Shown here: positions 3,456-33,300 of the stretch, one piece after another
Layout of the letters: the number at the start of each line of letters is the position of its first letter
Numbering within the stretch: position 1 is the stretch's first letter
Source: Bacteroidales bacterium
GTDB taxonomy: Bacteria; Bacteroidota; Bacteroidia; Bacteroidales; Marinilabiliaceae
Direction of reading: 5' to 3'
Assembly: GCA_003249255.1 (NCBI GenBank)
Contig: QKJP01000026.1
Coordinates: forward strand, 124,001-188,000
Length of the DNA stretch: 64,000 bases
Program-made: the position numbers and the translations under genes
Notes under the pieces: model-generated
The model's input: the letters and a program-made list of their open reading frames with translations, nothing else
The model's database searches: none
What the model was told of the DNA's origin: nothing

Positions 3456-3464
3456 ATTAGAAGT

Positions 3465-3492
3465 TTTTATACTTTTGATCAAAAGTATAAAA
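3465..3492. promoter_or_regulatory. 28-bp perfect palindrome with mirrored -7 boxes between divergent genes
   Basis: The 58-bp gap between two divergent genes is centred on a perfect 28-bp palindrome. Each half contains TACTTTTG, a match to the Bacteroidota -7 consensus TAnnTTTG (3470-3477 on plus, 3480-3487 on minus). It may therefore be a symmetric bidirectional promoter, an operator for a dimeric regulator, or both. The -33 elements are weak (TTTA at 3447-3450 for plus). Confidence 0.5.
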
Positions 3493-3513
3493 CCATTTTA
3501 AATCACATGTCCT

Positions 3514-4233: not shown

Positions 4234-4431
4234 GAATTATGTATATCCGTTATTGTGCTTAATTATTTAACACAGAGTCCCAAAGGCAATGAGTTTTTTC
4301 TATGAATAATCTAGTGCTCTGTTTCACCGCGTGCATCTGGCAGGTCTGTGATTCTGTATTGAGTTTTAGGCGTTATATCACTATTTTATGAATTGTGCGA
4401 TATATAAACATTCAGATTAAGAATAAAAAAG

Positions 4432-4464
4432 AAAGCGATTTTCAATATTGAAAATCGCTTTTTT
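4432..4464. terminator. Bidirectional terminator-like perfect palindrome
   Basis: A perfect 30-bp inverted repeat (arms 4432-4446 and 4447-4461) has an A-run on its left and a T-run on its right, so it can end transcription on either strand. It probably served both the plus-strand lipoprotein and the minus-strand 1517-residue gene before the family A element was inserted between it and the latter. Confidence 0.75.
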
Positions 4465-4499
4465 CATATCCAGACTGGAGTAGTTTTTTATTTTTTCAA

Positions 4500-4797
4500 T
4501 AATACGTTTTTGAGGTCACTAGATTAGTACATACATTTCTGCATAAATCTAAAAAAGCCCCAAAGTATGCGATATCCCAAAGCCTAGCCTGTATGGGCTA
4601 GGATAGTAATCAGGTATTTTATTTAAGCACAAAGGTGCGTAGTCGTGTGATTAAGACTACGCACCTATATTTGTGCTAACAATATCATGCCATGATATTC
4701 ATAGCCCTTCAGGCTATGCTTAATGACACCGCATCTTTGATGCTAACGTAAGCTTACTATTGATAAGTATTTAACTACTTACCTTTAATACGTTTTT
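4500..4797. mobile_element. Family A non-autonomous element, copy 1 (274 bp, 12-bp target duplication)
   Basis: The element spans 4512-4785 and is flanked by a perfect 12-bp direct repeat TAATACGTTTTT at 4500-4511 and 4786-4797. The ends are imperfect inverted repeats (GAGGTCACTAG against AAGGTAAGTAG). There is no ORF. It holds a series of hairpins: AGCCTAGCC/GGGCTAGG (from about 4581), the GGTGCGTAGTC/GACTACGCACC stem with outer GCAC/GTGC pairs (4627-4677), ATATCATGCCATGATAT, and TAGCCC/GGCTA. A second copy lies at 44362-44803. It resembles a MITE mobilised by a transposase elsewhere in the genome. Its right end supplies the stop codon of the gene at 4775-9328. Confidence 0.75.
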
Positions 4798-7700: not shown

Positions 7701-9328
7701 AGAAGTCCATTTGAGGTTATTCCAGGTGTTTGAGAATTAAAGGTAATGACATCATAATCTTTTTTACCCAGGCGGAAAAGTAAATAGTCTTTTAGGCGCT
7801 GTCTGATCTGGATTAAGTCGGTATTCACATTGTACTCAACAAATCCATACAGCGATAAGCCCATGACTTGTTGTCGAAGTTGATTTTCAGGTAAGCCCAT
7901 GTATCTGGCATAATCTTGCACAGTAAAGGCATAGCCATGAAAATAATCACTGCATGTTTTAAGACCTTGTAAGGGATGAATGGCGTCCATTCCTTGAAGT
8001 TGGTTATAGAATCCTTCGCGATAGAAACTGAGTGATTCGAAGTTGGATTTATTTTCGGCAGCACCAGATATCATTTTGAGTTCCATAAACTGGTCACCAA
8101 CCTTCCATTTGATCAATTCTACATCCATACTTACATTATGGAATGTGTCGAAATAGGGACTCATGGCTAAGCCATCACCTTGTCTGATTAGGTGAATTTC
8201 TTTAGTATCTGCCATGTATTTAAATACCAATCCGGGATGATAGATGTAAGCCGTGTCTAATTTTACTTTTATCTCTGCCAGATTACTTAATATGGTATTT
8301 TTTCGAAGTGCAAAATTTTCGGCTTTCGCAGTAATAAATACCGTGTCGTTTTTAAGGACTGTTATAATCGCCGGTTCATCATCAACAGATGACCCAAGGA
8401 ATTTTGCTCCATTTTGAGAGAATCCTCCTTCATAATTGATATTGGGGTGGATGTTTTCAATGGTAAAGCGTTTTCCGGTTGAGGTGAATTTAGGGTATCT
8501 GGCGCTTTGGGGACTATCGATTTTTAATACCTTATGGTGGATGGATCCATCAAGCGGATAGTCAAAATAATGTTTGTTGTAGAACTCTACTGAATCAACC
8601 TGAAAGTCGGATTGATCCATCTGGATTTTGTAATTGCCAAAATTAGCATAAACAGAATCCCGATGAAATCCTGCCCTTTCCCAGTTTATATTTCCTTTTT
8701 CGCCATACCATATTTCCTCTAAAGGATAGACCACGCCACTTGTATTGTGGATAATGATGCTATCCGCTTTGGCAAGACAGATTAGATCACTTTCGCTTAT
8801 TTTTATCGAGAGTTTTTCGTTTTCATAGGTGTAGCGAAGTGTTTTGTTGTTACTTTTCCATTTAACGGAAGGGGTTTCGAAGACTGTATTGTTTAATACA
8901 AATTCTTGACTTAAGCGTAGTAGGTTGTTGAAATGACGTAATTGGAATTTACGGTCTTTAAATAAATCATTGACTGCTAAATGCCAATTTGTGTAACTCT
9001 GCTGATCGTGCCCATTTTTCTTGAAAATCATAATGGTGGATAGGTAAGTGTGATAATCAGGGTATGGCCTTGCTCTTTTTACAGCCTGAATATTACACGT
9101 TTTTAAAATTGTCATTTGTTCTTCCGGGGATAACATTGTCGTGTCACTCCAGAATAGGGCAAACTCCTCAATAAACTCTTTTGCAGCTTTTTTATCGCTT
9201 GTGTTTTTAAATCGCTCGTTTAATTGTTCTACAAAGGTTTCAGGATTTTCAACGAACTTTTCTGCCTGACCAAAAATGGAACTTGTAAAAAGTATACCTG
9301 CAAGAAGGGTGAAAATGAAATATCTCAT
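4775..9328 (-). CDS. Very large secreted protein of unknown function (1517 residues)
   Basis: It starts with a clear signal peptide (MRYFIFTLLAGILFTSSIFGQ). A helical N-terminal segment to about residue 150 is followed by more than 1200 residues of beta-rich sequence with recurring patterns such as YxGKVNLKAENKHLSFDGG, which suggests stacked beta-sandwich or OstA-like layers. The last 60 residues are an acidic Glu/Thr/Val tail ending in KKRIKGK. I do not recognise the family; location is probably periplasm or cell surface. The last two residues (GK) and the TAG stop lie inside the inserted family A element, so the original C-terminus was different. It probably has its own promoter, as the prmA gene upstream ends 101 bp before it. 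Confidence 0.7.
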   Translation of the reverse strand: MRYFIFTLLAGILFTSSIFGQAEKFVENPETFVEQLNERFKNTSDKKAAKEFIEEFALFWSDTTMLSPEEQMTILKTCNIQAVKRARPYPDYHTYLSTIMIFKKNGHDQQSYTNWHLAVNDLFKDRKFQLRHFNNLLRLSQEFVLNNTVFETPSVKWKSNNKTLRYTYENEKLSIKISESDLICLAKADSIIIHNTSGVVYPLEEIWYGEKGNINWERAGFHRDSVYANFGNYKIQMDQSDFQVDSVEFYNKHYFDYPLDGSIHHKVLKIDSPQSARYPKFTSTGKRFTIENIHPNINYEGGFSQNGAKFLGSSVDDEPAIITVLKNDTVFITAKAENFALRKNTILSNLAEIKVKLDTAYIYHPGLVFKYMADTKEIHLIRQGDGLAMSPYFDTFHNVSMDVELIKWKVGDQFMELKMISGAAENKSNFESLSFYREGFYNQLQGMDAIHPLQGLKTCSDYFHGYAFTVQDYARYMGLPENQLRQQVMGLSLYGFVEYNVNTDLIQIRQRLKDYLLFRLGKKDYDVITFNSQTPGITSNGLLDLKNYDLNLNGVTSVAICDHQNVIFFPRKEKLILKANRNFIFDGVISAGMLNLFGNGFKFSYENFQIDMSNIDSLKMKVQSGETDYFGQPILKDVKNTIAGLSGSLKIDAPDNKSGNANNPQYPILKSDIDSHVYYDSKATQGGAYSRKDFYFVLDPFEMDSLNTLTPENFNFSGKFHSNIFPDFGENLTIREDYSLGFKRATPPEGYPIYDGKARFTKDIDLSFAGLKGNGNLEYLTSTSKSESFTFLPDRTKGNTQEFSVKYQTEGVEYPDVNATFTFIEFVPEEDYLTSTSLDENFVMYREEAELSGEVTVAPGGLTGSGKLNMLRATLNSPKYNFYSRTLDADLSDFSLVAGEVEGVSFSTDNLVSHLDFDQRQGTFKSISGGSKVEFTDNRYISYMSNFSWHMDKNDIYLGARGTEGNKFISVHRKQDSLSFLVPMARYDVENKTIYAEEVKKIDVGDANLMLNNGFVTIHENAVIDPLDSVVILVNDTAHTHKLYDARVTVQGKYAYTGYGKYDFTNGADKTYTLNMHKIEMNNDEKRTQAFGTISEKDFVNLDSHFAYKGKVNLKAENKHLSFDGGVQMLHPCRNGVQTYIRFEDIIDPKNIKIPVGEQIQNFEYENIYKDFFITKDSTHIYSSFLENRKDYSDVSMITSQGYLIYNEKVKSFDIASEIKHENPDTTGSLIRYNEFDCNVMASGKFDVGIDMDQIKLNNSGTIIHKREDNEFIFSSMMSINFFFDQTSIDILYSAILNSEAKISNLSSDTFISRMAEWIGRAEATKYDKARSTVGVIPEMNPAINKTFLFSNIDMKWKTSNNSYIADGNADLAFIKDYSINKTVDLKLKITRKRSGNSLDFYLQFDSKNWVYYSYKNGMMQTLSSDQAYNDFIQGLKSEERKQKVGLGEKSYSFILAPDSKKKRFLSTFNKDDSEEISDEEVEETTEETKVIEEETKNVEEEELQSEEELKKRIKGK

Positions 9329-9429
9329 AAATAAAGATTCTATTACATGTAATTTTCCTGCTTGAAAATAAAAACTATTGCAGGTACACTAATTTAGTAA
9401 TTCTCGATTGTAATTTCCTTATAAGTCGA

Positions 9430-10269
9430 TTAATTAGCTTTATAAAACTTAGTAGCTACCCAATTTTTATCAATTTTATGTTCTTGATATTCAAGATTGT
9501 ATTTTTGTGCTTCATTTTTGATGGCCTCTAAGTCTTCGGTGTAAAATCCACTAAAGAAGATACTTCCATTGGGTTTTAAAACTTTGGCATAGTTACAAAT
9601 GTCATTTAATAATATGTTTCTATTGATGTTGGCCAAAATAATATCGTATTGTTGATCCACCAAAAGTTCTGCTCCACCCATAAATATTTTCATATTTTTG
9701 ATGTGGTTGAGTTCAAGGTTTTCTATAGAATTGGTATAAGCCCATTCGTCAATGTCAATACCATCGATAGATTTTGCGCCTTGCAAAGATGCTAGCATAC
9801 CTAACAGACCAGTGCCACAACCCATATCTAAGATGTATTTATCTTTTACATCTGTTTCAAGAATGTATTGCATCATCAGGCTGGTTGTAGAATGATGACC
9901 CGTTCCAAATGACATTTTAGGATCAATGATAATCTCTTTTTCTATCTCCGGTTGAGTTGCGTGGAATGGACTTCTTACGATTACCTCGTTGCCGATAACA
10001 ATCGGTTGAAAATAGTTCTCTTCCCATTTTTTATTCCAGTTTTGGTCCGGTATAACTTCATCCGAAAAGCTAAGTTTAAGACCTTCGAAAGGAGCTTGAA
10101 TAGAATTTAAATCTGCTTTGACGTAATTTTTAGAAGGAATATAAGCATCGAAACCTGTGTCAGATTCACAAAAACTATCATATCCCAGATCGCCCATTTC
10201 TGCAATTAATAATTCTCCGGCAATTTCATTATAAGGCTCAATGGTTACTCTTACTTTAATATATTCCAT
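9430..10269 (-). CDS. prmA: Ribosomal protein L11 methyltransferase
   Basis: A 279-residue SAM-dependent enzyme that trimethylates ribosomal protein L11. The N-terminal substrate-binding ferredoxin-like domain (to about residue 60) is followed by a linker with FGTGHHSTT (about 119-127), the SAM motif ILDMGCGTGLLG (about 146-157), the acidic GIDID strand, and the LANINRNIL motif in the place of NPP/NIL of PrmA. The length is usual for Bacteroidota PrmA. It follows tpiA on the same strand, but a terminator at 10463-10493 separates them, so it probably has its own transcript. Confidence 0.93.
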   Translation of the reverse strand: MEYIKVRVTIEPYNEIAGELLIAEMGDLGYDSFCESDTGFDAYIPSKNYVKADLNSIQAPFEGLKLSFSDEVIPDQNWNKKWEENYFQPIVIGNEVIVRSPFHATQPEIEKEIIIDPKMSFGTGHHSTTSLMMQYILETDVKDKYILDMGCGTGLLGMLASLQGAKSIDGIDIDEWAYTNSIENLELNHIKNMKIFMGGAELLVDQQYDIILANINRNILLNDICNYAKVLKPNGSIFFSGFYTEDLEAIKNEAQKYNLEYQEHKIDKNWVATKFYKAN

Positions 10270-10462
10270 AGTTGTTTTGTTTTAAACTTATATTCTATTC
10301 AATTTGACATGTGTTGATGAAAGTAAATTATGTGCTGATGTGTAAATGCAACAATGTGCTGATTTAATTTCCTTATTATTCTTCTTTAAGCGATTGCCAT
10401 AAACCTTATATCTGATCAACTAACTTTAATTGTTAGATAGCAGTAGTTCATGTATTTGACAC

Positions 10463-10493
10463 AAAAAAGGCAGAACGGTAAATCCGAACTGCC
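10463..10493 (-). terminator. Terminator after tpiA
   Basis: On the minus strand, arms at 10484-10493 and 10469-10478 form a G+C-rich stem with two internal mismatches and a 5-nt loop, followed by a run of T (A-run at 10463-10468). It lies 26 bp after the tpiA stop. Confidence 0.75.
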
Positions 10494-10518
10494 CTTGTAT
10501 CATACGACTGAGATCTTT

Positions 10519-11274
10519 TTAGAATGCACTGATGATTCCATTGAAATCTTCAGCGTTTAATGATGCTCCACCAATAAGACCACCATCTACATCTGGATTT
10601 GCAAATAATTCTTTTGCATTTGAAGGCTTACAGCTACCACCGTATAAAATACTTGTGTTATCAGCAACCTCAGCTCCATATTTGTCAGCAATTACAGAAC
10701 GAATATAAGCGTGAATTTCCTGAGCTTGCTCTGGAGTTGCTACTTTTCCTGTTCCAATTGCCCATACCGGTTCGTAAGCAATAACGATTTTAGAAAACTC
10801 ATCAGCGCTTAAGTGGAATAAAGCTTCTTCGATTTGAGTTTTACAAACTTCATTTTGCTTATTAGCTTCTCTTTCTTCTAATACTTCACCAATACAGAAG
10901 ATCGGAGTTAAACCGTTGGCTAAAGCTAAATCCGTTTTGTCTTTTAAGATAGCGTTAGTTTCACCATAATATGTTCTTCTTTCAGAGTGACCTAAAATAA
11001 CATATTCAGCACCTGTTGATTTGATCATAGCTGCAGATGTTTCACCAGTGTATGCGCCGCTTTCTTTATCTGCACAATCTTGAGCAGAAATGCCAACTAA
11101 ATCAGTATTTACAGCTTTAACAGCTTCTGCTAAGTGGATGAAAGGAGTTCCTAAAACCACTTTGCAGTTTGGTTTGTTAGCCTCTAATAATGCGCTTACT
11201 TCTTTTGCTAATTTGATACCCTCTTCAAGAGTGTTGTTCATTTTCCAGTTTCCTGCAACAATGTTCTGTCTCAT
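10519..11274 (-). CDS. tpiA: Triosephosphate isomerase
   Basis: A 251-residue cytosolic glycolytic enzyme that interconverts dihydroxyacetone phosphate and glyceraldehyde 3-phosphate. It has the active-site lysine in GNWKMN (about 8-13), the electrophilic histidine in LGHSERR, the catalytic glutamate loop [11 protein letters not shown], and the phosphate-binding YGGS and GLIGGASL near the end. Length and motifs are standard. It lies third in a minus-strand run after DUF1599 and the DoxX/MauE-type gene (23 bp gap), an order common in Bacteroidota. Confidence 0.98.
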
Positions 11275-11297
11275 CGTTTTTAAAATTTTAGTTTATT

Positions 11298-12506
11298 TTA
11301 TTTAAATCTATAGATTAGTAACAGTAGAAATAAAAATCCAGATGTCCATATTACTAATAGTCGCTCTGTACTTTGTTCTTTCAAGCTTTTAATCGTGTAT
11401 GCTAAAGGTTCTTTTAGATCTTTGGCATTTGGTAAAGTTAAGTGGCTATATTTTGCCAGGATAGTCCCTTTTTGTAAAATCATTAATCCCGGATTATCGC
11501 GAATTATTGTTTTTAAGAATGTTTCATCTGCCACTAAATAATCAAAGCCGGCATTGTTTGTGGTGTCAAAGGTCATGATGGCTTCATTTGAAGATGATGT
11601 GACTCCATAAAAGGCATATCCCTTTTCAATGCAAATATGGTTAATTGCTATAAATTGTTCAATCGTTTCCGTTGATGCTTTTTCAACCTTTGGCATAATC
11701 ATTAAGAAAACAGGTTGTTCACTGGCTAAAATTGATTCACCCATTTGTTCTCCATCTGTTGTTTCCAACATAAATCCATCAATGGGAGGTTGATATCCTT
11801 TCTGAACCAGCACTGTTTTTGTTTCTACAAATACCCAGGTCGAGTCTTCGTAAGGGTAATTTTCAGTGGTAAATTCCTTTTGTTCACCATTTTTCGAAAG
11901 TATGAATGTTGTACTGTATTGAGGTTGTGCTTCGCCTTCAGGTATAATCATTTGTTGAGGAATGTTTGTTCCAATTTTGAAAGGACGGAAATCCAATACC
12001 GGAAGACTGTGCAATCCATAATATGAAATCGATAAAATGAATAATAAGCCAAAGAATATGCTGGCACCTTCCTTAAAGGGGCTTAGTTTAGTTTGAAATT
12101 TGTTGCGAGCTAAAAAAAGATATACTGCTAGTGGTAGTAAAAATAAGTTCTTAAAGAACGTTTCCCAATTGCTTAATTTGACAGCATCTCCAAAACAACC
12201 ACAATCACTTACCGGACTATAAATGGCACTGTATAAGGTTAATATCGTGAAGAATGCCATAAACAGCATGGTTGGTAAAGTGGCTTTTTTCGTTTTAAAA
12301 GCAAAAAACAATTGAAATCCTAGAATGAATTCGATGGTAGACAGGAGAATGGCAAAAATAACCGCAATGTAACCCAGGTTATGCAGGCCTACAATTTCAA
12401 GGTATTCACTAATTTTGATGGCCCCACCAACAGGGTCTACAGCTTTCACAAATCCTGAAAACAAGTAAAGTGCTCCTAATATGATTCTACTAAGTGTTTT
12501 AAGCAT
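11298..12506 (-). CDS. DoxX/MauE-type membrane protein (BT_3928 family)
   Basis: A 402-residue membrane protein. The N-terminal half holds four hydrophobic segments of the DoxX/MauE type (ILGALYLFSGFVKAVDP start, then three more helices by residue 140) and an SDCGCFGD motif, which is typical of MauE-like proteins and suggests thiol-disulfide chemistry. The C-terminal half (about 200-375) is a soluble, probably periplasmic region that looks thioredoxin-like but lacks a CxxC, and a final hydrophobic helix anchors the end. It matches the family named BT_3928 in Bacteroides, always next to tpiA and DUF1599. Exact function is unknown. Confidence 0.8.
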   Translation of the reverse strand: MLKTLSRIILGALYLFSGFVKAVDPVGGAIKISEYLEIVGLHNLGYIAVIFAILLSTIEFILGFQLFFAFKTKKATLPTMLFMAFFTILTLYSAIYSPVSDCGCFGDAVKLSNWETFFKNLFLLPLAVYLFLARNKFQTKLSPFKEGASIFFGLLFILSISYYGLHSLPVLDFRPFKIGTNIPQQMIIPEGEAQPQYSTTFILSKNGEQKEFTTENYPYEDSTWVFVETKTVLVQKGYQPPIDGFMLETTDGEQMGESILASEQPVFLMIMPKVEKASTETIEQFIAINHICIEKGYAFYGVTSSSNEAIMTFDTTNNAGFDYLVADETFLKTIIRDNPGLMILQKGTILAKYSHLTLPNAKDLKEPLAYTIKSLKEQSTERLLVIWTSGFLFLLLLIYRFK

Positions 12507-12520
12507 AAGTAAAGATTTTG

Positions 12521-13072
12521 TTATTCGGCATCGTTCGGGAAATCCAATTTAATCATTGCAAAAATTGCATAGTTGATAATATCCATGTAATTCGCATCTA
12601 TACCTTCTGATATGATCGTTTTTCCGTTATTATCTTCTATTTGTTTGGTTCTGTGAAGTTTCATCAAAATAAGATCAGTGAATGAACTGATCCTCATTTT
12701 TCTCCAGGCTTCATCATAATCATGGTTTTTGTCACCCATAAGGTTTTTGGCCGCAATAATTTTTTCAAAATAAAGAGCGAGGGCTTTTTCATGATCCATC
12801 TCCGGTTGATCTGCCGGGCCAAGTTCTAATTGAATAATTCCCATGGCAGCATAGTTGATGATACCGATGAATTCAGAACGAATACCCTCATCAATTTTAG
12901 AAGTTCCTTTGGTTTCAATACTTCTAATGCGTTGTGCTTTAATAAATATTTGATCCGTCATGCTTGAACTGCGAAGGATTCTCCAAGCGGTTCCGTAATC
13001 ACGCATTTTTTTTTCGAAGATTTCTTTGCAAACGTTGATTACATGATCAAACTGGCGGTCTGTTTTAGTCAC
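12521..13072 (-). CDS. DUF1599 protein with two tandem domains
   Basis: A 183-residue cytosolic protein made of two copies of the DUF1599 unit: residues about 7-85 (KKMRDYGTAWRILRSSSMTDQ..) and about 100-178 (DKNHDYDEAWRKMRISSFTDL..). Both share the D-Y-x-x-A-W-R-x-[ML]-R-x-S-S block and an INYA helix, so this is an internal duplication. DUF1599 has been linked to nucleotide modification, but its reaction is not known to me. The start is a GTG at 13072; no upstream ATG is in frame. It heads the operon with the BT_3928-type gene (14 bp gap) and tpiA. Confidence 0.85.
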   Translation of the reverse strand: MTKTDRQFDHVINVCKEIFEKKMRDYGTAWRILRSSSMTDQIFIKAQRIRSIETKGTSKIDEGIRSEFIGIINYAAMGIIQLELGPADQPEMDHEKALALYFEKIIAAKNLMGDKNHDYDEAWRKMRISSFTDLILMKLHRTKQIEDNNGKTIISEGIDANYMDIINYAIFAMIKLDFPNDAE

Positions 13073-13194
13073 TTTATGATGTTTTTATGAATTGTGGGGT
13101 AAAAATATCAAAAAATGATCAAAAAGGGGAATGGCTCTACAGATATTCTTTGTTTCGAACCGTTAATGTTTCGTTAAACTTTAATTGCAGGCAC

Positions 13195-13217
13195 AAAAAA
13201 AAGACTGCTATGCAGCC
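13195..13217 (-). terminator. Terminator overlapping the stop of the NapH-like gene
   Basis: On the minus strand, a 6-bp stem (13212-13217 with 13203-13208, one G-T pair) with a 3-nt loop is followed by eight T residues. The stem includes the TAG stop codon at 13208-13210. Confidence 0.75.
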
Positions 13218-13864
13218 TTTTTATATTTCCATTTTAAGGATTGGCTAGGGCATGAGGATACACAAACATTACATTTGGTACAATCATAACTGGGAATAAC
13301 TTGTTTTTTGTCTTTGTCAATGACTCCTAAATCCATGGGGCATTTTTTTGCGCACAACATGCAGGTTTTACAACTATCGGGGTTAAGTTCTAGATCTTTG
13401 TGGGATTTAGAAAAGCTTTTTTGTATGGTTCCCATCGGACATATTTTACACCATGATCGGGCTTTATATTTGGCTGCCAGAATTAATCCTAGTATGGTCG
13501 TCCAGGTGCACATAAACCAAAATACTCGGCCTAGATGGTCTAGGTCTGTAGGGTTTTTTGCAATCGAAAAAGTCATCATTACTATCATCAATGCGAAGAA
13601 AATCCACCTAAATGTTATTGACTTTAGCCATTGGGGTAACGATTTTTTCTTTTTTTGGCTAATTAATTTTGTAAGCCAGTTTTCAAGAAATAAACCTCTC
13701 GGACAATAATTTCCGCAGTGGTACCGACCTAAGAAAGTGCTTAATACTATTGCTGTTAACATGACTATGGGTACAATAAAACCTAATACCGGAATAAACC
13801 ATCCTAACAAGATTGTAACCGGCGCTAATACCGGAAGAATTTTCTTTGCAAACGTTGATTTCAT
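13208..13864 (-). CDS. NapH/MauN-like membrane ferredoxin, 4Fe-4S
   Basis: A 218-residue integral membrane protein with about four hydrophobic segments and iron-sulfur motifs of the NapH/CcoG kind. In order: CGNYCPRG near residue 50 and CKICPMG near 137 (polyferredoxin-type membrane cysteines), then two C-terminal 4Fe-4S clusters, CKTCMLCAKKCPMD and CTKCNVCVSSCPS. It probably passes electrons between the quinone pool and a periplasmic or membrane redox partner. No partner gene is adjacent. The upstream region has a -7 box overlapped by AT-rich dyads, which suggests it is regulated as a single gene. Confidence 0.8.
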   Translation of the reverse strand: MKSTFAKKILPVLAPVTILLGWFIPVLGFIVPIVMLTAIVLSTFLGRYHCGNYCPRGLFLENWLTKLISQKKKKSLPQWLKSITFRWIFFALMIVMMTFSIAKNPTDLDHLGRVFWFMCTWTTILGLILAAKYKARSWCKICPMGTIQKSFSKSHKDLELNPDSCKTCMLCAKKCPMDLGVIDKDKKQVIPSYDCTKCNVCVSSCPSQSLKWKYKKAA

Positions 13865-13886
13865 TTTGAATTAATTTAATACACTG

Positions 13887-13920
13887 CAAAGATATATAAA
13901 TATCTAAAAATATAGATATG
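13887..13920 (-). promoter_or_regulatory. Putative promoter with ATATCT/AGATAT operator dyads
   Basis: The minus-strand box TATCTTTG (13887-13894) matches TAnnTTTG and lies 23 bp before the NapH-like start codon. Directly upstream are AGATAT-4nt-ATATCT and a second ATATCTA-6nt-TAGATAT dyad, with no visible -33 element at the right distance. This arrangement suits a repressor or activator site. Confidence 0.45.
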
Positions 13921-14127
13921 TACATTGCAAAATGATGCAATTTTTATAATTAGTAAATGACAAAAATGATAAAATATTGTAATGTTGTCGTGTCAATTTA
14001 TAAGAATAAATGCCTGTAGATCAATGAATGAAGCACTTGCTTATTTGCTGATTGGCTAAGGGTTTATTAATTTGTAAGGATGACGGGAAGTCATTTTCAC
14101 CCTCAATCAATATGGTTAATTTAAGGC

Positions 14128-14160
14128 AAAAAAAAAGGCCTTTGTTCGTTAACAAAGACC
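14128..14160 (-). terminator. Terminator after the 280-residue secreted protein
   Basis: On the minus strand, arms at 14151-14160 and 14137-14146 form a 10-bp stem with one mismatch and a 4-nt loop, followed by a nine-T run. It lies 42 bp after the gene ending at 14203. Confidence 0.85.
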
Positions 14161-14202
14161 CTTTTCAAGATATATGGGATACACTATGAAGCTCAATTTA
14201 TT

Positions 14203-15045
14203 TTATTGATTTTGAGATGATATGCTCGAAAGAGAAACAGTATTTTTTTCGTGTCTGCTGATTAATTTTTTAGTTAGATCAATTTCACTGTGCATAGAAG
14301 GTACCAGTTGAAGCAGTTTTAGTTTCTCAGTTAGGTAGAAGAGTTTAGTGCTGTCTGATTTATTGCAAGCCCAATATGCTCTGTCCAGCCACTCTGAAGC
14401 ATCGATAATGCTTTCTTCGTCGGTTTGGGAGCTGTAAATAATAGGAATGGCCCAACTGTATAACGTAACATCATCCGGAGTTTGATAGTAGCCTTTTAAC
14501 TCATTGATATATATGGTAGAAATATATTCTTTCCAATTGCCTAATTTCCGCTCTAATTCTACGGTAAGTAATCCTTTTAATTTATAATAGTTTTTTGCAT
14601 TTCGTTCATTAAGCAAATCAAAGTAACCTGTTAGTTCAGCTTCCAGATTTTGATTGTTTGTCGTACGGATAATCTGTTTGCCATGTGCTAAATAGGCATT
14701 GAATATTTTTTCGGCAACCTTTTTCTTTCCATAGACTTTAGCGTATTTTTTTTGATTTTTTAAAAGTATAGTAAAAACTGGCGCATTTATGTTGTTTACA
14801 TACTTTATAAATAGATTAAAATCTGCTGCATTTAAAATATCATCAGTTAGACGAGACGTGAAATAGTTGTTCAGTACAGTATTTAATTCCTCTGAATTGT
14901 TGGTTAGTTGTAATTGTTCAAGTTTTTCACGTAAGAGTGATTGGTCATCAATACTATCGGTATGATTGATAGAATTCTTTGCAAAGCTAATTGTGGATGT
15001 AAGAAGCAGTGCTGTGGCGATCATAGTGTTTATTCTTGTCTTCAT
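14203..15045 (-). CDS. Secreted helical protein of unknown function
   Basis: A 280-residue protein with a signal peptide (MKTRINTMIATALLLTSTISFA). The mature part is mainly helical, with spaced aromatic and Asn residues (GYYQTPDDVTLYSWAIP, then ASEWLDRAYWACNKSD), which may be degenerate TPR-like repeats. It resembles the helical C-terminal parts seen in some Bacteroidota thioredoxin-fold proteins, but no thioredoxin domain or CxxC is present. It is a single-gene transcript with its own terminator, divergent from the malic enzyme gene. I do not recognise the family. Confidence 0.6.
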   Translation of the reverse strand: MKTRINTMIATALLLTSTISFAKNSINHTDSIDDQSLLREKLEQLQLTNNSEELNTVLNNYFTSRLTDDILNAADFNLFIKYVNNINAPVFTILLKNQKKYAKVYGKKKVAEKIFNAYLAHGKQIIRTTNNQNLEAELTGYFDLLNERNAKNYYKLKGLLTVELERKLGNWKEYISTIYINELKGYYQTPDDVTLYSWAIPIIYSSQTDEESIIDASEWLDRAYWACNKSDSTKLFYLTEKLKLLQLVPSMHSEIDLTKKLISRHEKNTVSLSSISSQNQ

Positions 15046-15309
15046 AGTAATAACGTTTAAAAAAGAACACCCTCTACAGTTTCCTTTTTTGTTTTGTTAT
15101 CTATGTTTACTTAGATAACTCTATTGTGTTAGTATTTATAGATTAACCTCTTGTTGAATGTTGATGAATGAAGAAAAAAAAGAGATAAACTCTTGACAAA
15201 ATATGTTTTTTACCATATACCAATACGTAGAGATTACCCTCATTAATGAGTATTTTTGTGAAATAGAATTTATACCCACAGACAAAAGAATAAACAAAAA
15301 ACACTATCA

Positions 15310-17589
15310 ATGGGACAAAGAGAAGATGCTTTACAGTATCATGAATCCGGAAAGCCGGGTAAAATTGAGGTTATACCTACCAAACCTTACAGTACACAAC
15401 TGGACTTATCCTTAGCCTATTCTCCCGGAGTGGCCGAGCCTTGCAAGGAAATTGAAAAAGATGAAACAAATGCCTATAAATACACCTCAAAAGGAAATTT
15501 GGTAGCTGTTGTTTCTAATGGAACAGCTGTTTTAGGACTTGGAGACATTGGTCCCTTGGCCGGAAAACCCGTGATGGAAGGTAAAGGCTTGCTTTTTAAA
15601 GTATTTGCCGATGTTGATGTGTTTGATATTGAGGTGAATGAAAAATCGGTTGAGGGAATGGTGAATGTGGTAAAAGCAATTGCTCCAACCTTTGGCGGAA
15701 TTAATTTGGAAGATATAAAAGCGCCTGAATGTTTTGATATCGAAGAACAGCTGAAGAAAGAATTGGACATCCCTGTTTTTCATGACGATCAGCATGGAAC
15801 TGCTATTATATCTGCAGCCGGATTATTAAATGCAGTTGAATTGGCCGGTAAAAAGATTGAAGACATAAAAGTTGTTGTCAATGGCGCAGGGGCTTCTGCA
15901 ATCATGTGTTCCAGACTGTATAAAAGTATAGGTGTGAGGCCTGAAAATGTTTGGATGTGTGATAGTAAAGGGCTTATTAGTTCAGACAGGCAGGATTTGA
16001 ATAAATATAAAATCGAATTTGCGCAAAATAGTTCTTTAAAAACACTCGAGGATGTATTGGTTGGTGCAGATGTTTTCCTTGGTTTATCCAAAGGAAATGT
16101 TTTAAGTCAAGAAATGGTTCAGTCAATGGCTGCTAATCCGATCGTATTTGCATTAGCTAATCCTACTCCCGAGATAAGTTATGAAGATGCCATGGCTTCT
16201 CGAGAAGACTTGATTTTTGCCACCGGTCGATCGGATTATCCTAACCAGATTAATAATGTGTTAGGTTTCCCATTTATTTTTAGAGGGGCTTTAGATGTGT
16301 TGGCAAAAACTATCAATGAAGAAATGAAAGTGGCTGCCGTATATGCCTTGGCAGAATTAGCTCGTCAGGACGTACCGGATAAAGTAAATGCTGCCTATAA
16401 AAGCGAAAATCTACGCTTTGGTAGAAATTACATTATCCCAAAACCTTTGGATCCGCGATTGATTACCGTTGTAGCTCCGGCAGTGGCTAAAGCTGCCATT
16501 GAAAGTGGAGTGGCTCGTAAAACAATTGACGATTGGGATCAATACAAAATAGATTTGATGAAGCGTATGGGATTGTATAATAAGCTGGTTCGTGACCTTA
16601 GGTCTAAGGCTAAAAGTGATCCTAAACGAGTTGTGTTTGCTAATGCTGATCAATTTCGTGTTTTAAAAGCTATTGAGGTGGTTAATAATGAGAGAATTGC
16701 AATTCCTATCTTATTGGGTGATCGGGAGAAAATTCTTAGTTTGGCCAAAGAAAATAATATTGATGTGAATGACTTGCAGATTCTTGATATGCGCCATTCT
16801 AATCAGGATCAACGAAGAGAGAAATATGCTCACTTGCTTTATGAAAAAAGGAAACGAAAAGGATTAACCATTGAAGATGCCAGAAGTAAAATGTTTGATC
16901 CAAACTATTTTGGAACCATGATGGTTGAAATAGGTGAGGCAGATGGTTTCTTGGGTGGTTTTGCCAATAAATATGCCGATACCATTCGTCCGGCTTTGCA
17001 GATTGTGGGCTCCAATAATACCTTGAAACACATTGCTGGAATGTATATTGTAATGACTAAGAAGGGGCCTTACTTTTTTGCAGATACAACCGTAAATTAT
17101 CAACCTTCTTCCCGAACCCTGGCAGATACGACTTTATTAACAGTCAATGAAGTTCGAAAATTTAATATTGAACCGGTTGTTGCCATGGTCTCTTATTCTA
17201 ATTTTGGCTCAACAAAAGAAGGTAGTCCACAACGCGTAAGAGAGGCTGTTGAGTATCTTCATGAAAACTATCCGGATTTATTGGTTGATGGAGAAATGCA
17301 GGCAAATTTTGCATTTAATACCGAATTGAGAATGCAAAAGTTTCCATTTTCTAAACTTGCAGATAAAGAAGTAAATACCATTATTTTTCCAAGTTTGAGT
17401 TCAGGTAATATTGCATATAAGATGATGAGTGAATTAGGTCAGTGTGAAATTATTGGTCCTGTACTTTTGGGAATTCGTAAACCTATCCATGTTTTACAAA
17501 TGCAAAGTACTGTTCGTGAAATTGTAGATATGGCTGCTATTACCGTAGTAGATGCTCAAAGTAAAAAAGACGAAATAATTAATTTGTAA
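15310..17589 (+). CDS. maeB: NADP-dependent malic enzyme with phosphotransacetylase-like domain
   Basis: A 759-residue MaeB-type enzyme, oxidatively decarboxylating malate to pyruvate with NADP. The malic domain opens with [12 protein letters not shown] and [10 protein letters not shown]; the NAD(P)-binding domain has [13 protein letters not shown] and [11 protein letters not shown]; the linker [15 protein letters not shown] leads into a phosphotransacetylase-like domain (about 430-755) that in this family is regulatory and binds acetyl-CoA. The ATG at 15310 matches the family start ([19 protein letters not shown]). It is divergent from the preceding gene; the next gene follows 55 bp later. 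Confidence 0.96.
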
Positions 17590-17644
17590 AATGTAAGGAA
17601 GTCATGTAAGTAACGTCTATTGTATCAAAACATAAACAAGAGTT

Positions 17645-18535
17645 ATGAGAAAAATAGCGTTACTTATATTATTATCCGGAATCACTTCTTATTTATTTGC
17701 ACAAGGGTGTAGTGATGCAGGAGCATGTAGTATTTACCATTATGAGCGAGGTGATGAATCTCAAAAACAATTAAAAGCATCACTCTCTCAGACTCTTGAG
17801 CTGGGAGAAAAGAATGCAATAATCAATCAGACTGTATCAAGTTTTACTTTTTTATTTGATCAAACTCAGATAGGGATAAGTTTACCTTATCGTCAATCAT
17901 TTTATAATGGTGAATATTATAAAGGTTTAGCTGATGTGACTGTTAGTGGAGGCTATTCTTTTAACGATAAAATTAATTTTGGTTTGGCCTTTAAGCTGCC
18001 CGTTCATTCAGCAAATGAATTAGATAAAGAGGGTTTTGTGAGACCAATGGCCTTGCAAACCAGTTTGGGCACTTATGATGCAATACTATCCATGAACTAT
18101 GAAATGAATGATTGGGGAGTTGGAGTTGCCTATCAGCATGCGTTAACTTCTAATGAAAATACATTTATTCAAAACAAAAAGTACGAAGAGTTTTTAACTA
18201 CAGCAGATTTTGAAAGAGGTGATGATGTGGTCTTAAGATTTGATCGTTATTTGAAGGGTGATGCTAAAACCTGGCATTTTGCTTTGGTATCCGTTTATCG
18301 TTTAAATGGGGATTATTCGTTAGGGCAGAAAATTAAAGGATCAGAGGGAGCTTCTTTTAATGTGCTAATAGATCATCAGTGGCACGCCAAAGAAAACAGA
18401 ACCACAAATGTTTTCTTTGCGATGCCATTAAGAGTAAGAGAGGCCAGGCCGGATGGATTAACTCGTACCTTTATTTTGGGTGCCAAGATGAGTGGTTTAT
18501 TTACGCAAAAGAAATCACCAGTTTATAGTTTCTAA
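17645..18535 (+). CDS. Outer-membrane beta-barrel protein with CSDAGAC motif
   Basis: A 296-residue protein with a signal peptide (MRKIALLILLSGITSYLFAQ) followed at once by GCSDAGACS. Alternating hydrophobic strands (ALVSVYRLNGDYSLGQK, NVFFAMPLRVRE) and the terminal aromatic (YSF) fit an outer-membrane barrel of about 12-14 strands. I recall proteins with a C-S-D-A-G-x-C start in other Bacteroidota, with no assigned substrate. The two cysteines could form a disulfide or bind metal at the periplasmic face. Its 3' end overlaps the convergent ung gene by 21 bp. Confidence 0.65.
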   Translation: MRKIALLILLSGITSYLFAQGCSDAGACSIYHYERGDESQKQLKASLSQTLELGEKNAIINQTVSSFTFLFDQTQIGISLPYRQSFYNGEYYKGLADVTVSGGYSFNDKINFGLAFKLPVHSANELDKEGFVRPMALQTSLGTYDAILSMNYEMNDWGVGVAYQHALTSNENTFIQNKKYEEFLTTADFERGDDVVLRFDRYLKGDAKTWHFALVSVYRLNGDYSLGQKIKGSEGASFNVLIDHQWHAKENRTTNVFFAMPLRVREARPDGLTRTFILGAKMSGLFTQKKSPVYSF

Positions 18536-28752: not shown

Positions 28753-31200
28753 TTAAAATGCTACAGTGAGTTTTAAGTTGATTCTTCGGGAAGTTAAGTA
28801 ATTGGGTACAGCATATTGCTGATTATTAACATCACTTACCCAGAAATACGAAATGGTATTTTGAATATCAAATAAATTAAATACTTCAAGACTTAGCCAG
28901 AATTCATCTAAAAGACCATTGGGTTTTGGATTTTTTCCTCTTAAATCTTTCATTAAGCCAAGGTCAACTCGGCGATAATCGGGCATGCGGTTTACCGCCA
29001 TGTATCTATCTGATTGAGGCGGTCCAAATGGTAACCCCGTTCCGTACAGTAGATTTAGATTAACTCTTAAGGTAGGGTTGTTTGGCAAATAATCCTGAAA
29101 GAACAAAGAAAAGGTTACTCGCTGATCCGTTGGTCTAGGAATGTATCCCGGATAAATGGTTTCAGTTGTTTCTGTTTCACCATTTTTATGAGTTACTATA
29201 TATGAATCATCAGTGATGTCTTCTTCTGATTTCATGATGCTCATATTAAACCATGATTCTACTCCGGGTACAAAATCACCGTGTATTTTAAAATCAATAC
29301 CAGTAGCATAGCCTTTGGCATTGTTTTCTCCTAAGTATCGTACCCTTACGTTATCAATTTGGTAGGGGATCAGATTGTCAAATTTTTTGTAATAAGCTTC
29401 TGTTGTAAATTTGAAAGGTCGATTATTCCAGGTGAAATATTTATCATAGCCGGCTACAATTTGAGTTGATTTTTGAGCTTTGATATCTGGATTTAAAATT
29501 CCTTCCGGAGTTCTGAGTTCCCGGTAAAGCGGACTTTGGTAATAAATACCTCCGGCCATCCTAAGCCGTACTTTCTTATTGTTGTTGGGATGTAGCAAGA
29601 TGTTGGCTCTTGGACTAATTAAAAACTCATTGTTGTAATCCCAGTAATTGGTTCTAAACCCAAAGTTAAGAATGAGTTCTCCCAGATTAGTTTCTATTGG
29701 AAGCTCATCTTGAATGTAAGTTGTAAGGCGGTTTGTATTGGTTTCTTGTTGTGAATTGTAGGCATAAACTAAATCAACCTGATTGTCTGAATATGGAAGC
29801 GAGTAACCGGAAGAATCTCTCATTTCCCATTCATTAAAATAGTCTTTAAAGAATTCTTTTTGGCCTTTAATCTCCCATGAGAGGCGGTTGTTACTGATGT
29901 GATGTTTTCCTTGAAGAGCAAGGTTTGAGATGGTTCCGTATAGGGAGTTTCTGGCATGCTCCATGTTGCTTCCAACTCCTATGTTTTGGCCTTTTGAGCT
30001 TGATGATTTACCGCTAAAGTCAGGTGTAATTTCTTCCAGTCTGTATTCTCCTAAGATGTCAAAGTTTTCTTCTTCAAAAGTTTGGTAAGAAGAAACGGTT
30101 ACTTTAAACCGATTGGAATAATTGTGTATATAAGATAAGGATGCAGCACCCATGGCGGTTGAAAACTGATCTTTTTCTTGGCCTTCGAAATAAATCACCA
30201 GGTTTTTAGTATCGCCTAAAGTACCAAAGGTTGTTTGTCTGGTAGTAGGGGTGAAATTATAAGTGTTGTTGGAGAAATAACCCAAGGCATTTAATTTCCA
30301 TTTTTTGTTGAATTTGTAGGTCATAAATGCTTGTACATCAAAAAATGTGGGGTTGTAATCTCCTTCGGTATCCAAAGAACCTAATAGATATTGGTTAGTT
30401 TTATACCTTGCTCCGGTGATGATGGAAAATTTCTCGTTTTTAGAACTTCCTTCCAGGTGAGTTGAAGCTCCCAGAAAACTTGCTTTAGCACTTCCTTTAA
30501 ATTCTTTTGGATCTTTGTAAGTGACATCTAATACGGATGACATTTTATCGCCATATTGAGACTCAAAACCGCCAGGTGAAAACTTTAAGGAGGATACTAA
30601 ATCCGGATTCACAAAACTTAATCCTTCCTGTTGACCGGAGCGAATTAAGAATGGTCTGTATATCTCAATATCGTTTACATAAACCATGTTTTCATCATAA
30701 TTGCCTCCTCTTACCCGGTACTGAGAACTCAATTCATTGTTGGAAGAAACACCAATCTGGCTTTTAACCAGACCTTCGATATTCCCTCCTGATACATCGG
30801 GAAGTAACATGGTTGTTTTGGCATTTATTTTTGTAAAGCTTTGACCTTTTAAGCGGCCTTGCACCTCAACCTGATCCAGTTCTTCGGCTTTCTGTTTCAG
30901 TTTAAAACTAATGTTAGTGGCATTATCAGCCGATTTAATGGTTATGGTGCTTTTGTTATATCCGATGAATGTAGCAATAAGCGTAACCGGGAATTCTGCA
31001 TTTGTTTTAATTTTGAAATCACCGGTAGGGCTTGTAACGGTTCCTTCATTGGTTGAAGCGACAACCACATTTACAAATTCAAGTGCTTTGTTGTTTTGAT
31101 CGGTAACTTTTCCTGAAATAGTTGTTTGCCCTTTTGCAATTGAGGAGAAAGCCACTGTAAAAAGGAGTATTTGTATGAAGTAGTATGCTTGTTTTTTCAT
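28753..31200 (-). CDS. TonB-dependent outer-membrane receptor
   Basis: An 815-residue protein: signal peptide (MKKQAYYFIQILLFTVAFSS), CarboxypepD_reg-like domain (TISGKVTDQNNKALEFVNV, about 25-110), a TonB plug domain with YRVRGGNYDENMVYVNDIEI (about 160-180) and a 22-strand barrel ending in RRINLKLTVAF with the terminal aromatic. The plug start region carries a short N-terminal extension (LDQVEVQGRLKG) typical of TonB boxes in this phylum. The ligand is unknown; the gene is not paired with SusD. A minus-strand -7 box TATTTTTG lies at 31301-31308. Confidence 0.9.
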   Translation of the reverse strand: MKKQAYYFIQILLFTVAFSSIAKGQTTISGKVTDQNNKALEFVNVVVASTNEGTVTSPTGDFKIKTNAEFPVTLIATFIGYNKSTITIKSADNATNISFKLKQKAEELDQVEVQGRLKGQSFTKINAKTTMLLPDVSGGNIEGLVKSQIGVSSNNELSSQYRVRGGNYDENMVYVNDIEIYRPFLIRSGQQEGLSFVNPDLVSSLKFSPGGFESQYGDKMSSVLDVTYKDPKEFKGSAKASFLGASTHLEGSSKNEKFSIITGARYKTNQYLLGSLDTEGDYNPTFFDVQAFMTYKFNKKWKLNALGYFSNNTYNFTPTTRQTTFGTLGDTKNLVIYFEGQEKDQFSTAMGAASLSYIHNYSNRFKVTVSSYQTFEEENFDILGEYRLEEITPDFSGKSSSSKGQNIGVGSNMEHARNSLYGTISNLALQGKHHISNNRLSWEIKGQKEFFKDYFNEWEMRDSSGYSLPYSDNQVDLVYAYNSQQETNTNRLTTYIQDELPIETNLGELILNFGFRTNYWDYNNEFLISPRANILLHPNNNKKVRLRMAGGIYYQSPLYRELRTPEGILNPDIKAQKSTQIVAGYDKYFTWNNRPFKFTTEAYYKKFDNLIPYQIDNVRVRYLGENNAKGYATGIDFKIHGDFVPGVESWFNMSIMKSEEDITDDSYIVTHKNGETETTETIYPGYIPRPTDQRVTFSLFFQDYLPNNPTLRVNLNLLYGTGLPFGPPQSDRYMAVNRMPDYRRVDLGLMKDLRGKNPKPNGLLDEFWLSLEVFNLFDIQNTISYFWVSDVNNQQYAVPNYLTSRRINLKLTVAF

Positions 31201-31308: not shown

Positions 31309-31445
31309 CAATAGATTCCTAATTAACCATTGTGTTGTAGGGGATTTTTACCCGGCACTAAGATTTAACGTTAAAAGGTGGATTTGAGTATTTGAGATAA
31401 GAAGTTTTACAGCAAAAGTGGATCGTTTTTTGTATCTTTAGAACT

Positions 31446-31622
31446 ATGAGTAAGCGTATTATCGATAATCATCCCCATTTAAAAGATCCCAAAGAGAGAC
31501 TCGTTAAAATGACCTCTGCCTTGGTGTATTCTTTCGAGATTGAAGGGATTTTTTTCTCACAAGAGCAAATTGAGGAAATGGTTGTAGTGGTCGAGGAAGA
31601 TATTAAAAAACAAGCTCAATAA
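31446..31622 (+). CDS. Small protein with Fic-inhibitory motif, candidate antitoxin
   Basis: A 58-residue ORF, ATG at 31446 to TAA at 31620-31622. Residues 29-34 read SFEIEG, which fits the (S/T)xxxE(G/N) inhibition helix of class I Fic antitoxins such as VbhA; the residues after it (IFFSQEQIEEM) are a helix, as in that family. The gene runs toward the Fic gene and overlaps its 3' end by 20 bp, unlike the usual upstream antitoxin order. A near -7 box TATCTTTA ends 5 bp before the ATG, so the mRNA may be nearly leaderless. Class I antitoxin is an inference from the motif and place. Confidence 0.6.
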   Translation: MSKRIIDNHPHLKDPKERLVKMTSALVYSFEIEGIFFSQEQIEEMVVVVEEDIKKQAQ

Positions 31623-32268
31623 TTTTATTCATTGGTTGATAATCTTGCATTGCTGCTGCTTGAACAGCTTGAACATACTTGTGAAATTGACGCTCAGTAA
31701 TCTTGTAAAAATTTAAGAAGTCGCAGCCTTGTTTGATCGCCATCATGTTTGCCAATACCCTTGCCACTCTTCCGTTAGCTTCTCTAAAAGGATGGATGTA
31801 AAGTAATTCGGCATGCACTGTAGCAATGCTTTTAATTAATTCTTCCTTTGAATTATAGGCTTTCTTGATGGTAGAAAGAATTTTTAAATCAAAGTCGTGG
31901 CAGATTTGCGGTAGAAACTTAGCGGTAGGAAATAAAAAATTAGCTTTTGTCATATTTACATGTCTTAGTTTTCCGGCAAAAGAGTATATGTCCTTAAGGG
32001 CTAGAAAATGAATGCGCTTGATGTATTCAAAATTGAACTTTGTTTCTGAGGTTAATTCTTCTAAAAGTTGATATTGAGCTTTTAAGAAACCTTCAAACTC
32101 TACTTTGTGTAATAGGTTTATGTCTTTAATACCCATGAGGTTAGGGAGTATTTCTAATTGATTCTCATTGCCTGGTACTTCATATTTTGATTGTGAATAA
32201 GGCATTTTTGTTCTGTTTTGAACTGAAATTACTTCTAAAACAGCCTCGTGGCAAGTGGAAAAGCTCAT
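31603..32268 (-). CDS. Fic family protein (AMP-transferase type)
   Basis: A 221-residue protein with the full Fic core HPFREANGRVAR (His about 159), so it should transfer AMP or a related moiety to a target protein. The flap region NFLFPTAKFLP and the N-terminal helices (FNFEYIKRIHFLALKDIYSFAGKLR) fit the class I group. No (S/T)xxxE(G/N) motif is seen in the protein itself; the nearest match is KVEFEG, with Lys in place of Ser or Thr. This suggests a separate antitoxin is needed. Start could also be the Met at 32205. Divergent from the dehydrogenase at 32317. Confidence 0.88.
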   Translation of the reverse strand: MSFSTCHEAVLEVISVQNRTKMPYSQSKYEVPGNENQLEILPNLMGIKDINLLHKVEFEGFLKAQYQLLEELTSETKFNFEYIKRIHFLALKDIYSFAGKLRHVNMTKANFLFPTAKFLPQICHDFDLKILSTIKKAYNSKEELIKSIATVHAELLYIHPFREANGRVARVLANMMAIKQGCDFLNFYKITERQFHKYVQAVQAAAMQDYQPMNKIIELVF

Positions 32269-32316: not shown

Positions 32317-33300
32317 ATGTCAGAGCACAAAAAATATAAAGCATTAATAATGTTTGCCATTCCTTTAAAGCCATTTCAAGATGTTTTGCCCGATTGGGAG
32401 TTTCTTTATCCAAGTGAAGAGAAGTTTACCGATGACGAAATGATAGAACTCATCTCTGATTGTGATGCCATTGTTACTGTTTATGGTCAAAAGTTATCAA
32501 ATGCCGTGATTGATGCCAGTGTAAAACTAAAGATGATTGCCAATTTTGGAGCCGGATATGATAATGTAGATGTAGCTTATGCCTCATCTAAAGAGATATT
32601 GGTGACGAATAGTCCTGATCCGGTTACTGAGCCAACTGCTGAATTAGCCCTGGGATTGATGATATCAGTTGCCCGAAGAATGGGTGAGATGAATCATAAA
32701 ATTCATAACCGTGAAACCTTAGTGTGGGGTGTTATGAAAAATCTAAGCACTACACTGGTTGGAAAACGTTTGGGTATTCTGGGAATGGGAGCTATCGGAA
32801 AAGCACTTGCCAGAAGAGCTGTGGCATCCGGTATGGAAGTGGTGTACCACAATAGGAACCGGGCTTCCAATGAAGTAGAAGCCCAATTTCAGGCGAGCTA
32901 TGTTTCTAAAAACGATTTGTTAGCAAGTTCGGATGTGGTTTCTTTAAATGTGCCTCTTACCGAAGAAACAAAGCATTTGATTGGTGAAGAAGAGTTGAAA
33001 ATGATGAAATCCAGTGCTTTTTTGATTAATACTGCCCGAGGTCCGGTGGTTGATCAAAAGGCCTTGATTCAAGCGCTTCAAAATAAAGAAATAGCAGGTG
33101 CGGGATTAGATGTTTATGAAGATGAACCTAATATACCAACTGAATTATGCGGTATGGAAAATGTTGTGTTGATTCCACATTTGGGAACTGCTACTCACGA
33201 AACTAGGGAATTAATGTCTTTGGTAGTTGCTCAAAACATAAAGGCAGCTTTTGAGAAACAAAATATTCCTAATGCAATCAATAGAAATCAATTAAAATAA
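32317..33300 (+). CDS. D-2-hydroxyacid dehydrogenase
   Basis: A 327-residue NAD(P)-dependent dehydrogenase, probably glyoxylate/hydroxypyruvate or glycerate type. The substrate-binding loop NFGAGYDNVDV, the Rossmann motif GILGMGAIGKALARRA, the Arg region NTARGPVVD, the catalytic Glu in YEDEPN and His in IPHLGTATHETR are all present. The exact substrate cannot be told. It is the first gene of a likely two-gene unit with yjbQ, which starts 4 bp after it. Confidence 0.9.
   Translation: MSEHKKYKALIMFAIPLKPFQDVLPDWEFLYPSEEKFTDDEMIELISDCDAIVTVYGQKLSNAVIDASVKLKMIANFGAGYDNVDVAYASSKEILVTNSPDPVTEPTAELALGLMISVARRMGEMNHKIHNRETLVWGVMKNLSTTLVGKRLGILGMGAIGKALARRAVASGMEVVYHNRNRASNEVEAQFQASYVSKNDLLASSDVVSLNVPLTEETKHLIGEEELKMMKSSAFLINTARGPVVDQKALIQALQNKEIAGAGLDVYEDEPNIPTELCGMENVVLIPHLGTATHETRELMSLVVAQNIKAAFEKQNIPNAINRNQLK

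Follow-up and report, generated by a model that had tools for sequence, protein, structure and literature searches.

Class I Fic proteins are defined by a separate inhibitor protein, the gene for which usually lies upstream of fic in the same operon. The VbhA, EcFicA (YhfG) and AntF genes are located upstream in this way (PMC3667792, PMC5033356, PMC13327609). A different order is described for the FicY-AntY pair of Yersinia pseudotuberculosis, which its authors count as class I: AntY, with the motif S22TAIET27, is produced from a downstream convergent ORF and fully abolishes AMPylation of ParE by FicY in vitro, and the authors infer independent promoters for the two genes (PMC7479194). In that paper the word 'convergent' appears twice and 'divergently' once. 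Because of this precedent (PMC7479194), the convergent Fic layout must be regarded as already known; among the literature matches listed, in which subscription papers are thinly covered, we noticed no further report of it, nor any in Bacteroidota.

Here we describe a pair of this kind in a 64,000-nucleotide stretch of a Bacteroidales contig, referred to below as the window. The pair resembles FicY-AntY in combining a class I Fic with a small putative antitoxin gene that is downstream and convergent (PMC7479194), although AntY carries STAIET and the window protein the canonical SFEIEG. It also shares with VbhT-VbhA, EcFicT-EcFicA and Fic-1-AntF a Fic core accompanied by a separate small (S/T)xxxE(G/N) protein, and hence the same inhibition logic, but it departs from the usual class I trait of an antitoxin gene located upstream in one operon. 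Our analysis adds to this background that the convergent type occurs in Bacteroidota, that convergent and upstream class I pairs are split by one fully supported branch, that the Fic of the convergent type corresponds to the PADLOC candidate PDC-S04, that the window antitoxin has no match in the libraries searched, and that a leaderless or near-leaderless antitoxin mRNA is predicted. The features of the locus are collected in Table 1.

Table 1. Features of the convergent fic locus; positions are those of the window.
Feature	Position	Strand	Basis
Putative antitoxin gene, 58 aa	31446..31622	+	ORF and translation, linkage to fic, purifying selection, structure model
Inhibitory motif S29-F-E-I-E33-G34 (SFEIEG, residues 29-34)	31530..31547	+	sequence, homologue alignment
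fic toxin gene, 200 aa from probable start	31603..32205	-	Pfam, PDB and PADLOC matches; start from homologues
FIC core HPFREANGRVAR (H138 to R149 of the 200-aa protein)	31759..31794	-	sequence, homologue alignment
Predicted sigma-A -7 box TATCTTTA (consensus TAnnTTTG), 5 nt before ATG	31433..31440	+	comparison with convergent loci of the phylum
Overlap of the ORF 3' ends (tail to tail), 20 bp	31603..31622		coordinates of both ORFs

The ORF listed for fic spans 31603..32268 on the minus strand (221 aa). An alignment of 12 homologues places the start more probably at 32205 (MPYSQSKY). The 20-bp tail-to-tail overlap stands as described. The catalytic core HxFx(D/E)GN(G/K)R is represented by HPFREANGR, which we counted as an instance of it; the Ala, where most carry Gly, is shared by 10 of 49 Fic homologues, the window's included, and H138, P139, F140, R141, N144, G145, R146 and R149 are invariant among 17 Fic homologues. 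A search for (S/T)xxxE(G/N) inside the window Fic protein found none, only KVEFEG, confirming the earlier remark that the core is intact and that the protein has no inhibitory motif of its own, as in class I. The protein matches Pfam Fic PF02661 (E 2e-16), and among PDB sequences it is closest to two class I proteins, 8wt0_A, which is the Fic-1-AntF entry of PMC13327609, and VbhT. Its structure model is poor (mean pLDDT 62.8), and the PDB matches of that model (best E 0.007, with Fic proteins on top) were kept out of the evidence. PADLOC assigns the window Fic to PDC-S04 through the model PDLC04839 (E 6.5e-63, 210 bits). PDLC04839 was the best model for all six convergent Fic tried (the window's, L149, L095, L132, L136 and L064), and PDLC04838, also PDC-S04, was the best for all three upstream Fic tried (L146, L034 and L152). 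The S in PDC-S04 presumably stands for single-gene. The same genome encodes a second Fic (L054, G000:C70:11688-11984) of 263 aa, with the core HPFADGNGR and SEYLEN near its C-terminus, which is class III-like.

The 58-aa reading frame and its SFEIEG at residues 29-34 were confirmed by sequence and translation. Taken alone, the motif would be weak evidence for antitoxin identity, and (S/T)xxxE(G/N) arises in 2.3% of 100,000 shuffles of the protein's residues. Its conservation makes it more than chance: S29, E33, G34 and I35 are invariant in an alignment of 17 small-protein homologues, which were collected using queries that carry the motif, and the motif accompanies 39/39 canonical-core Fic against 0/170 control genes (see below). 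A separate small protein with a conserved (S/T)xxxE(G/N) motif thus adjoins fic, as expected of class I. Over the first 50 codons, which lie outside the overlap with fic, synonymous differences amount to 0.38-0.90 per site (at least 0.54 in 20 of 21 pairwise comparisons), and non-synonymous differences, at 0.16-0.38 per site, are below them in all 21. As judged from these substitutions, selection on the small gene is purifying and acts at the protein level. The structure model of the small protein (mean pLDDT 88) contains two long helices, one at 15-32 running into E33-G34 and the other at 39-57; the first, as modelled, looks as an inhibitory helix would be expected to look.

Searches of the window small protein against Pfam, NCBIfam, PADLOC and PHROGs returned nothing above noise. 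The preliminary description had proposed a comparison with VbhA/FicA antitoxin profiles; the protein does not match VbhA (PF18495) above the gathering score and cannot be placed in that family; in 61 genomes this profile gave 10 matches, none of them at a convergent pair and none to any of the seven convergent antitoxins. One upstream antitoxin used for comparison (L034) does match PF18495, at 34.9 bits. The window's own genome also contains a sub-threshold VbhA-like match (L225, G000:C37:131040-131150; 20.2 bits) within a 216-aa frame. Among relatives, the L119 antitoxin matches phrog_19286, of unknown function (E 1.4e-4), and the L095 antitoxin has a weak, below-cut-off similarity to Fic_N (E 0.012). 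Two antitoxins compared with the PADLOC models gave no match beyond noise. Against 177,635 distinct PDB sequences, the best match of the antitoxin profile was 5eu0_B, 'antitoxin 1', a Fic-domain partner (E 0.25), followed by an unrelated flagellar protein (0.3). Profile alignment with upstream same-strand antitoxins brought the motifs into register (probability 33%), and alignment with the convergent SxxxETG antitoxins was weak (probability 2.3%, E 0.02). Because of this weak profile link, homology of the two convergent antitoxin types is argued from their Fic partners and their layout. A Foldseek search of the small-protein model against the PDB gave nothing at E <= 0.001, and none of the 9 proteins matched is a Fic antitoxin. 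The best VIA-align match, the DNA-binding protein 2np2_A (Z 5.9), was rejected as within noise for small helical models. This lack of a fold match is no sign of a different fold.

We then compared the window's own genome and 60 relatives. The small protein is present in 7 of these 61 genomes at E <= 6.1e-5 (next best match 0.098), and a close Fic is present in the same seven at E <= 9e-68 (next best 3.3e-13); at E <= 0.01 the small protein accompanies the close Fic in 7/7 genomes and occurs in 0/54 others. Both genes are convergent in all seven, with an overlap of 11 or 20 bp. Seven loci from named genomes (six Carboxylicivirga and one Saccharicrinis, two of the seven being contigs already in this count) likewise contain a convergent pair with an 11-bp overlap. 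In the six Carboxylicivirga/Saccharicrinis loci that were compared, the pair is flanked by homologues of the window neighbours at 28753-31200 and 32317-33300, an outer-membrane-receptor-like gene and a 2-hydroxyacid dehydrogenase gene; that is, it occupies the chromosomal site of the window, and is therefore a fixed chromosomal resident there. In wider samples, matches to the antitoxin profile are rare: 3/393 genomes of the order sample at E < 1e-5 and 4/395 of the phylum sample at E < 1e-4, one of the latter (G671) being a frame with no Fic core nearby. This frame (L094, G671:C1:740388-740522) encodes SHKIEG and matches the profile at E 1.9e-9, and the Fic core is absent from its 3.1-kb locus; it is an orphan or a remnant.

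To ask how general the layout is, Fic relatives were collected more broadly. A Fic profile of 17 proteins matched 26/395 phylum genomes at E <= 1e-25, tblastn found Fic relatives on plasmids, and a pattern scan of viral contigs found 53. Loci from all searches were scored jointly, with doubles removed by identical Fic C-termini (L059 and L006, like L060 and L005, lie on contigs of equal length and encode the same proteins), leaving 49 distinct Fic proteins of at least 100 bits. The canonical core, by a pattern that lets in one HPYRGGNGR (L132), is present in 39 of the 49, and all 39 face a convergent small ORF (45-110 aa at the 3' end of fic) bearing SxxxE(G/N) or SxxxETG, counts that carry some selection because L064 and L065 were reached only through the antitoxin query and the viral loci through a pattern favouring HPFRE[AG]NG. 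SxxxE(G/N) occurs in 27 of these ORFs, all from the window's phylum, and SxxxETG in the other 12, from four gammaproteobacterial records and eight viral contigs. An ORF of 45-110 aa also converges on 37 of the 170 control genes, and the motif was found beside none of the 170. The ten Fic with another core comprise five with a convergent ORF carrying a degenerate motif, four with no such ORF, three of which have a same-strand antitoxin upstream, and one cut off by a contig end. Conservation beside fic homologues, on which the preliminary description had staked its proposal of a convergently encoded antitoxin for a class I Fic, thus holds in 7/7 genomes with a close Fic, the window's own among them, and for 39/39 canonical-core Fic, and this linkage together with the selection pattern supports the proposal.

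Records from Citrobacter, Aeromonas, Marinomonas and Proteus show the convergent layout with S(S/T)AIETG. The Citrobacter antitoxin has STAIET at residues 22-27, the same residues as in AntY, and its Fic is 31% identical to the window's; in the STAIET-type records found here the overlap is mostly 4 bp, as against 20 bp in the window. DNA similar to the Citrobacter pair was found in 38 of 5,426 E. coli genomes, in 24 of these over at least 80% of its length. At L206 (E. coli NCTC9064, 7680-18336), a convergent Fic pair lies right after a tyrosine recombinase gene, itself after nfeF, with ATP-dependent nuclease and helicase genes farther along and the antitoxin annotated as 'hypothetical protein'. 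At L208 (G589:C1:408500-421500), the order over 3363-10332 is hsdM, hsdS, fic, convergent antitoxin and hsdR, a type I restriction-modification locus in which the fic ATG shares one base with the hsdS stop. At five loci, L136-L140 (G441, G496, G554, G457 and G436), the Fic core is HPF(R/M)NGNGR, with the acid replaced by Asn, and the motif of the convergent small ORF is degenerate (TMYIEE, NMALET or NMALEA). Asn in place of this acid is also found in the Fic core of Doc. In these loci the active site and the inhibitory motif seem, from their sequences, to decay together.

We constructed a maximum likelihood tree of class I Fic proteins, 39 from convergent and 22 from upstream pairs, the latter being sampled rows that do not include VbhT, EcFicT or Fic-1. 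The tree contains a single layout change, on a branch with support 100/100, and a single change was recovered in 100% of 200 bootstrap trees. This clean split covers convergent versus upstream rows only and is unrooted as to which layout came first; it left out 7 short rows, 6 near-copies and all rows without a convergent or upstream small gene, L140 (motif NMALEA) was labelled convergent by hand, and the tree program gave a long-branch warning for L138 and two more, and for L169 with L182. Pairs with the STAIET motif sit on the convergent side of the dividing branch. In a quick tree of 101 rows, the convergent group required 4 changes with all rows and 2 once rows without an assigned inhibitor were left out; there, class II rows on long branches fall within the convergent group, and support for the deepest splits is low (59). 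The convergent order is the rule in the window Fic's part of the tree. Given this and the published precedent (PMC7479194), the order is less unusual than the preliminary description had thought. It seems to represent a widely distributed variant of a known toxin-antitoxin system.

A promoter-like box was found upstream of many convergent antitoxin genes. With at least 5 of 6 fixed bases and at most 9 nt before the ATG, it precedes the antitoxin gene at 18 of 30 convergent loci from the phylum, a tally in which the near-copies L057 and L058 are both counted; it lies exactly 4 nt before the ATG in 16 of the 18, and it is absent in the other 12 loci, mostly the more distant ones. In control genes the box occurs anywhere within 9 nt in 7/90 and at exactly 4 nt in 5/161, a background that may be understated since the starts of several loci were set by homology and the control starts were the first ATG. 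In a mapped Flavobacterium transcriptome this box is reported at -12 to -5 and leaderless mRNAs make up 5.5% (PMC9723704); the share of 5' UTRs below 10 nt is reported as about 3.7% in B. thetaiotaomicron (PMC7366714). A box at -12 to -5 would therefore place the transcription start on the A of the ATG, or one base before the ATG in the window. The antitoxin gene is probably transcribed on its own, and a leaderless or near-leaderless mRNA is predicted to be a conserved trait; the position of the box makes this a specific, testable prediction.

Together, these observations make it very probable that the window pair is a convergently arranged type II toxin-antitoxin system with a class I Fic toxin. 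A convergent class I Fic antitoxin is supported by co-occurrence with Fic, 39/39 convergent linkage, protein-level selection and the promoter-like box; the core, the motif and the position in the tree complete the direct basis for the pair. From these we infer how inhibition, the Glu-Arg contact, the target and the leaderless start might fit together. With an intact core and no built-in inhibitory helix, the window Fic would be an AMP-transferase that, if unchecked, AMPylates an essential target and stops growth; by analogy, the target would most likely be the ATPase subunit of topoisomerase IV or gyrase (ParE/GyrB). The first long helix of the antitoxin (15-32) would lead into the inhibitory motif, and Glu33 should form a salt bridge with R149, the second FIC-core arginine, by which productive ATP binding would be blocked. 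The antitoxin mRNA, leaderless or nearly so, would come from a promoter of its own, and toxin and antitoxin would thereby be expressed independently rather than as one operon.

Other readings of the locus differ in how well they account for these data. One, by which the small ORF would be a conserved but unrelated gene, or no gene, and its motif an accident, would fit the lack of a family match for the window protein and the frequency of the motif in shuffled sequences, but it is contradicted by the co-occurrence, the invariant motif, the selection pattern and the promoter box and can be given hardly any weight; an accidental ORF was ruled out on the first three of these grounds and the 39/39 convergent linkage. 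The preliminary description had further suggested a second, RNA-level control, in which the antitoxin mRNA pairs with the 3' end of the fic mRNA and lowers Fic output. The overlap measures 9-60 bp in 27/27 SxxxE(G/N) members (20 bp in 11, 11 bp in 9), so that full-length coding transcripts would be complementary there, and an antisense RNA is described as acting on the type II system relBE2 (PMC9325379). Against this, the 12 SxxxETG members overlap by just 4 bp in ten cases and not at all in one, and searches at the pair for a terminator-like site or an Rfam family found neither. Short convergent overlaps are common in bacteria. We found no positive evidence for RNA-level control and consider it improbable.

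Two further possibilities concern what the pair does. The Fic-antitoxin complex might itself be active, with the antitoxin glutamate turning Fic into a deAMPylase and an independently expressed antitoxin switching between addition and removal of AMP. Fic-1-AntF deAMPylates GyrB and requires AntF E28 to do so, and Fic-1 (8wt0_A) is the best PDB sequence match of the window Fic, but the Fic-1 antitoxin gene is upstream (PMC13327609), and we regard this reading as rather unlikely for the window. Similarly doubtful is an anti-phage role by abortive infection, in which the antitoxin is lost or outcompeted upon infection and Fic then arrests the cell: the 210-bit match to PDC-S04, one pair flanked by the type I restriction genes hsdS and hsdR, another beside a DUF262 gene, and three enterobacterial pairs directly after an integrase are consistent with defence, but PDC is a candidate label only, and the six Carboxylicivirga/Saccharicrinis pairs are at the window's own chromosomal site and not in a defence island.

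Returning to the convergent class I pair, it is conceivable, and we put this forward tentatively, that convergent FicTA is one old class I lineage, spread across Bacteroidota and Gammaproteobacteria, whose toxins and antitoxins have become permanently uncoupled. Many Bacteroidota antitoxins would then be leaderless, possibly translated when normal initiation fails, PDC-S04 would really be a two-gene system, and the side branch in which the core acid became Asn and the motif decayed with it would have changed chemistry. Searches for Fic antitoxins confined to upstream genes would make the convergent branch look unregulated. PDC-S04 is a possible case, in that a Fic cloned alone for phage tests could fail, being toxic without the facing gene. 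The convergent pair also offers a naturally occurring case in which to ask if a type II toxin depends on an antitoxin encoded in its own operon.
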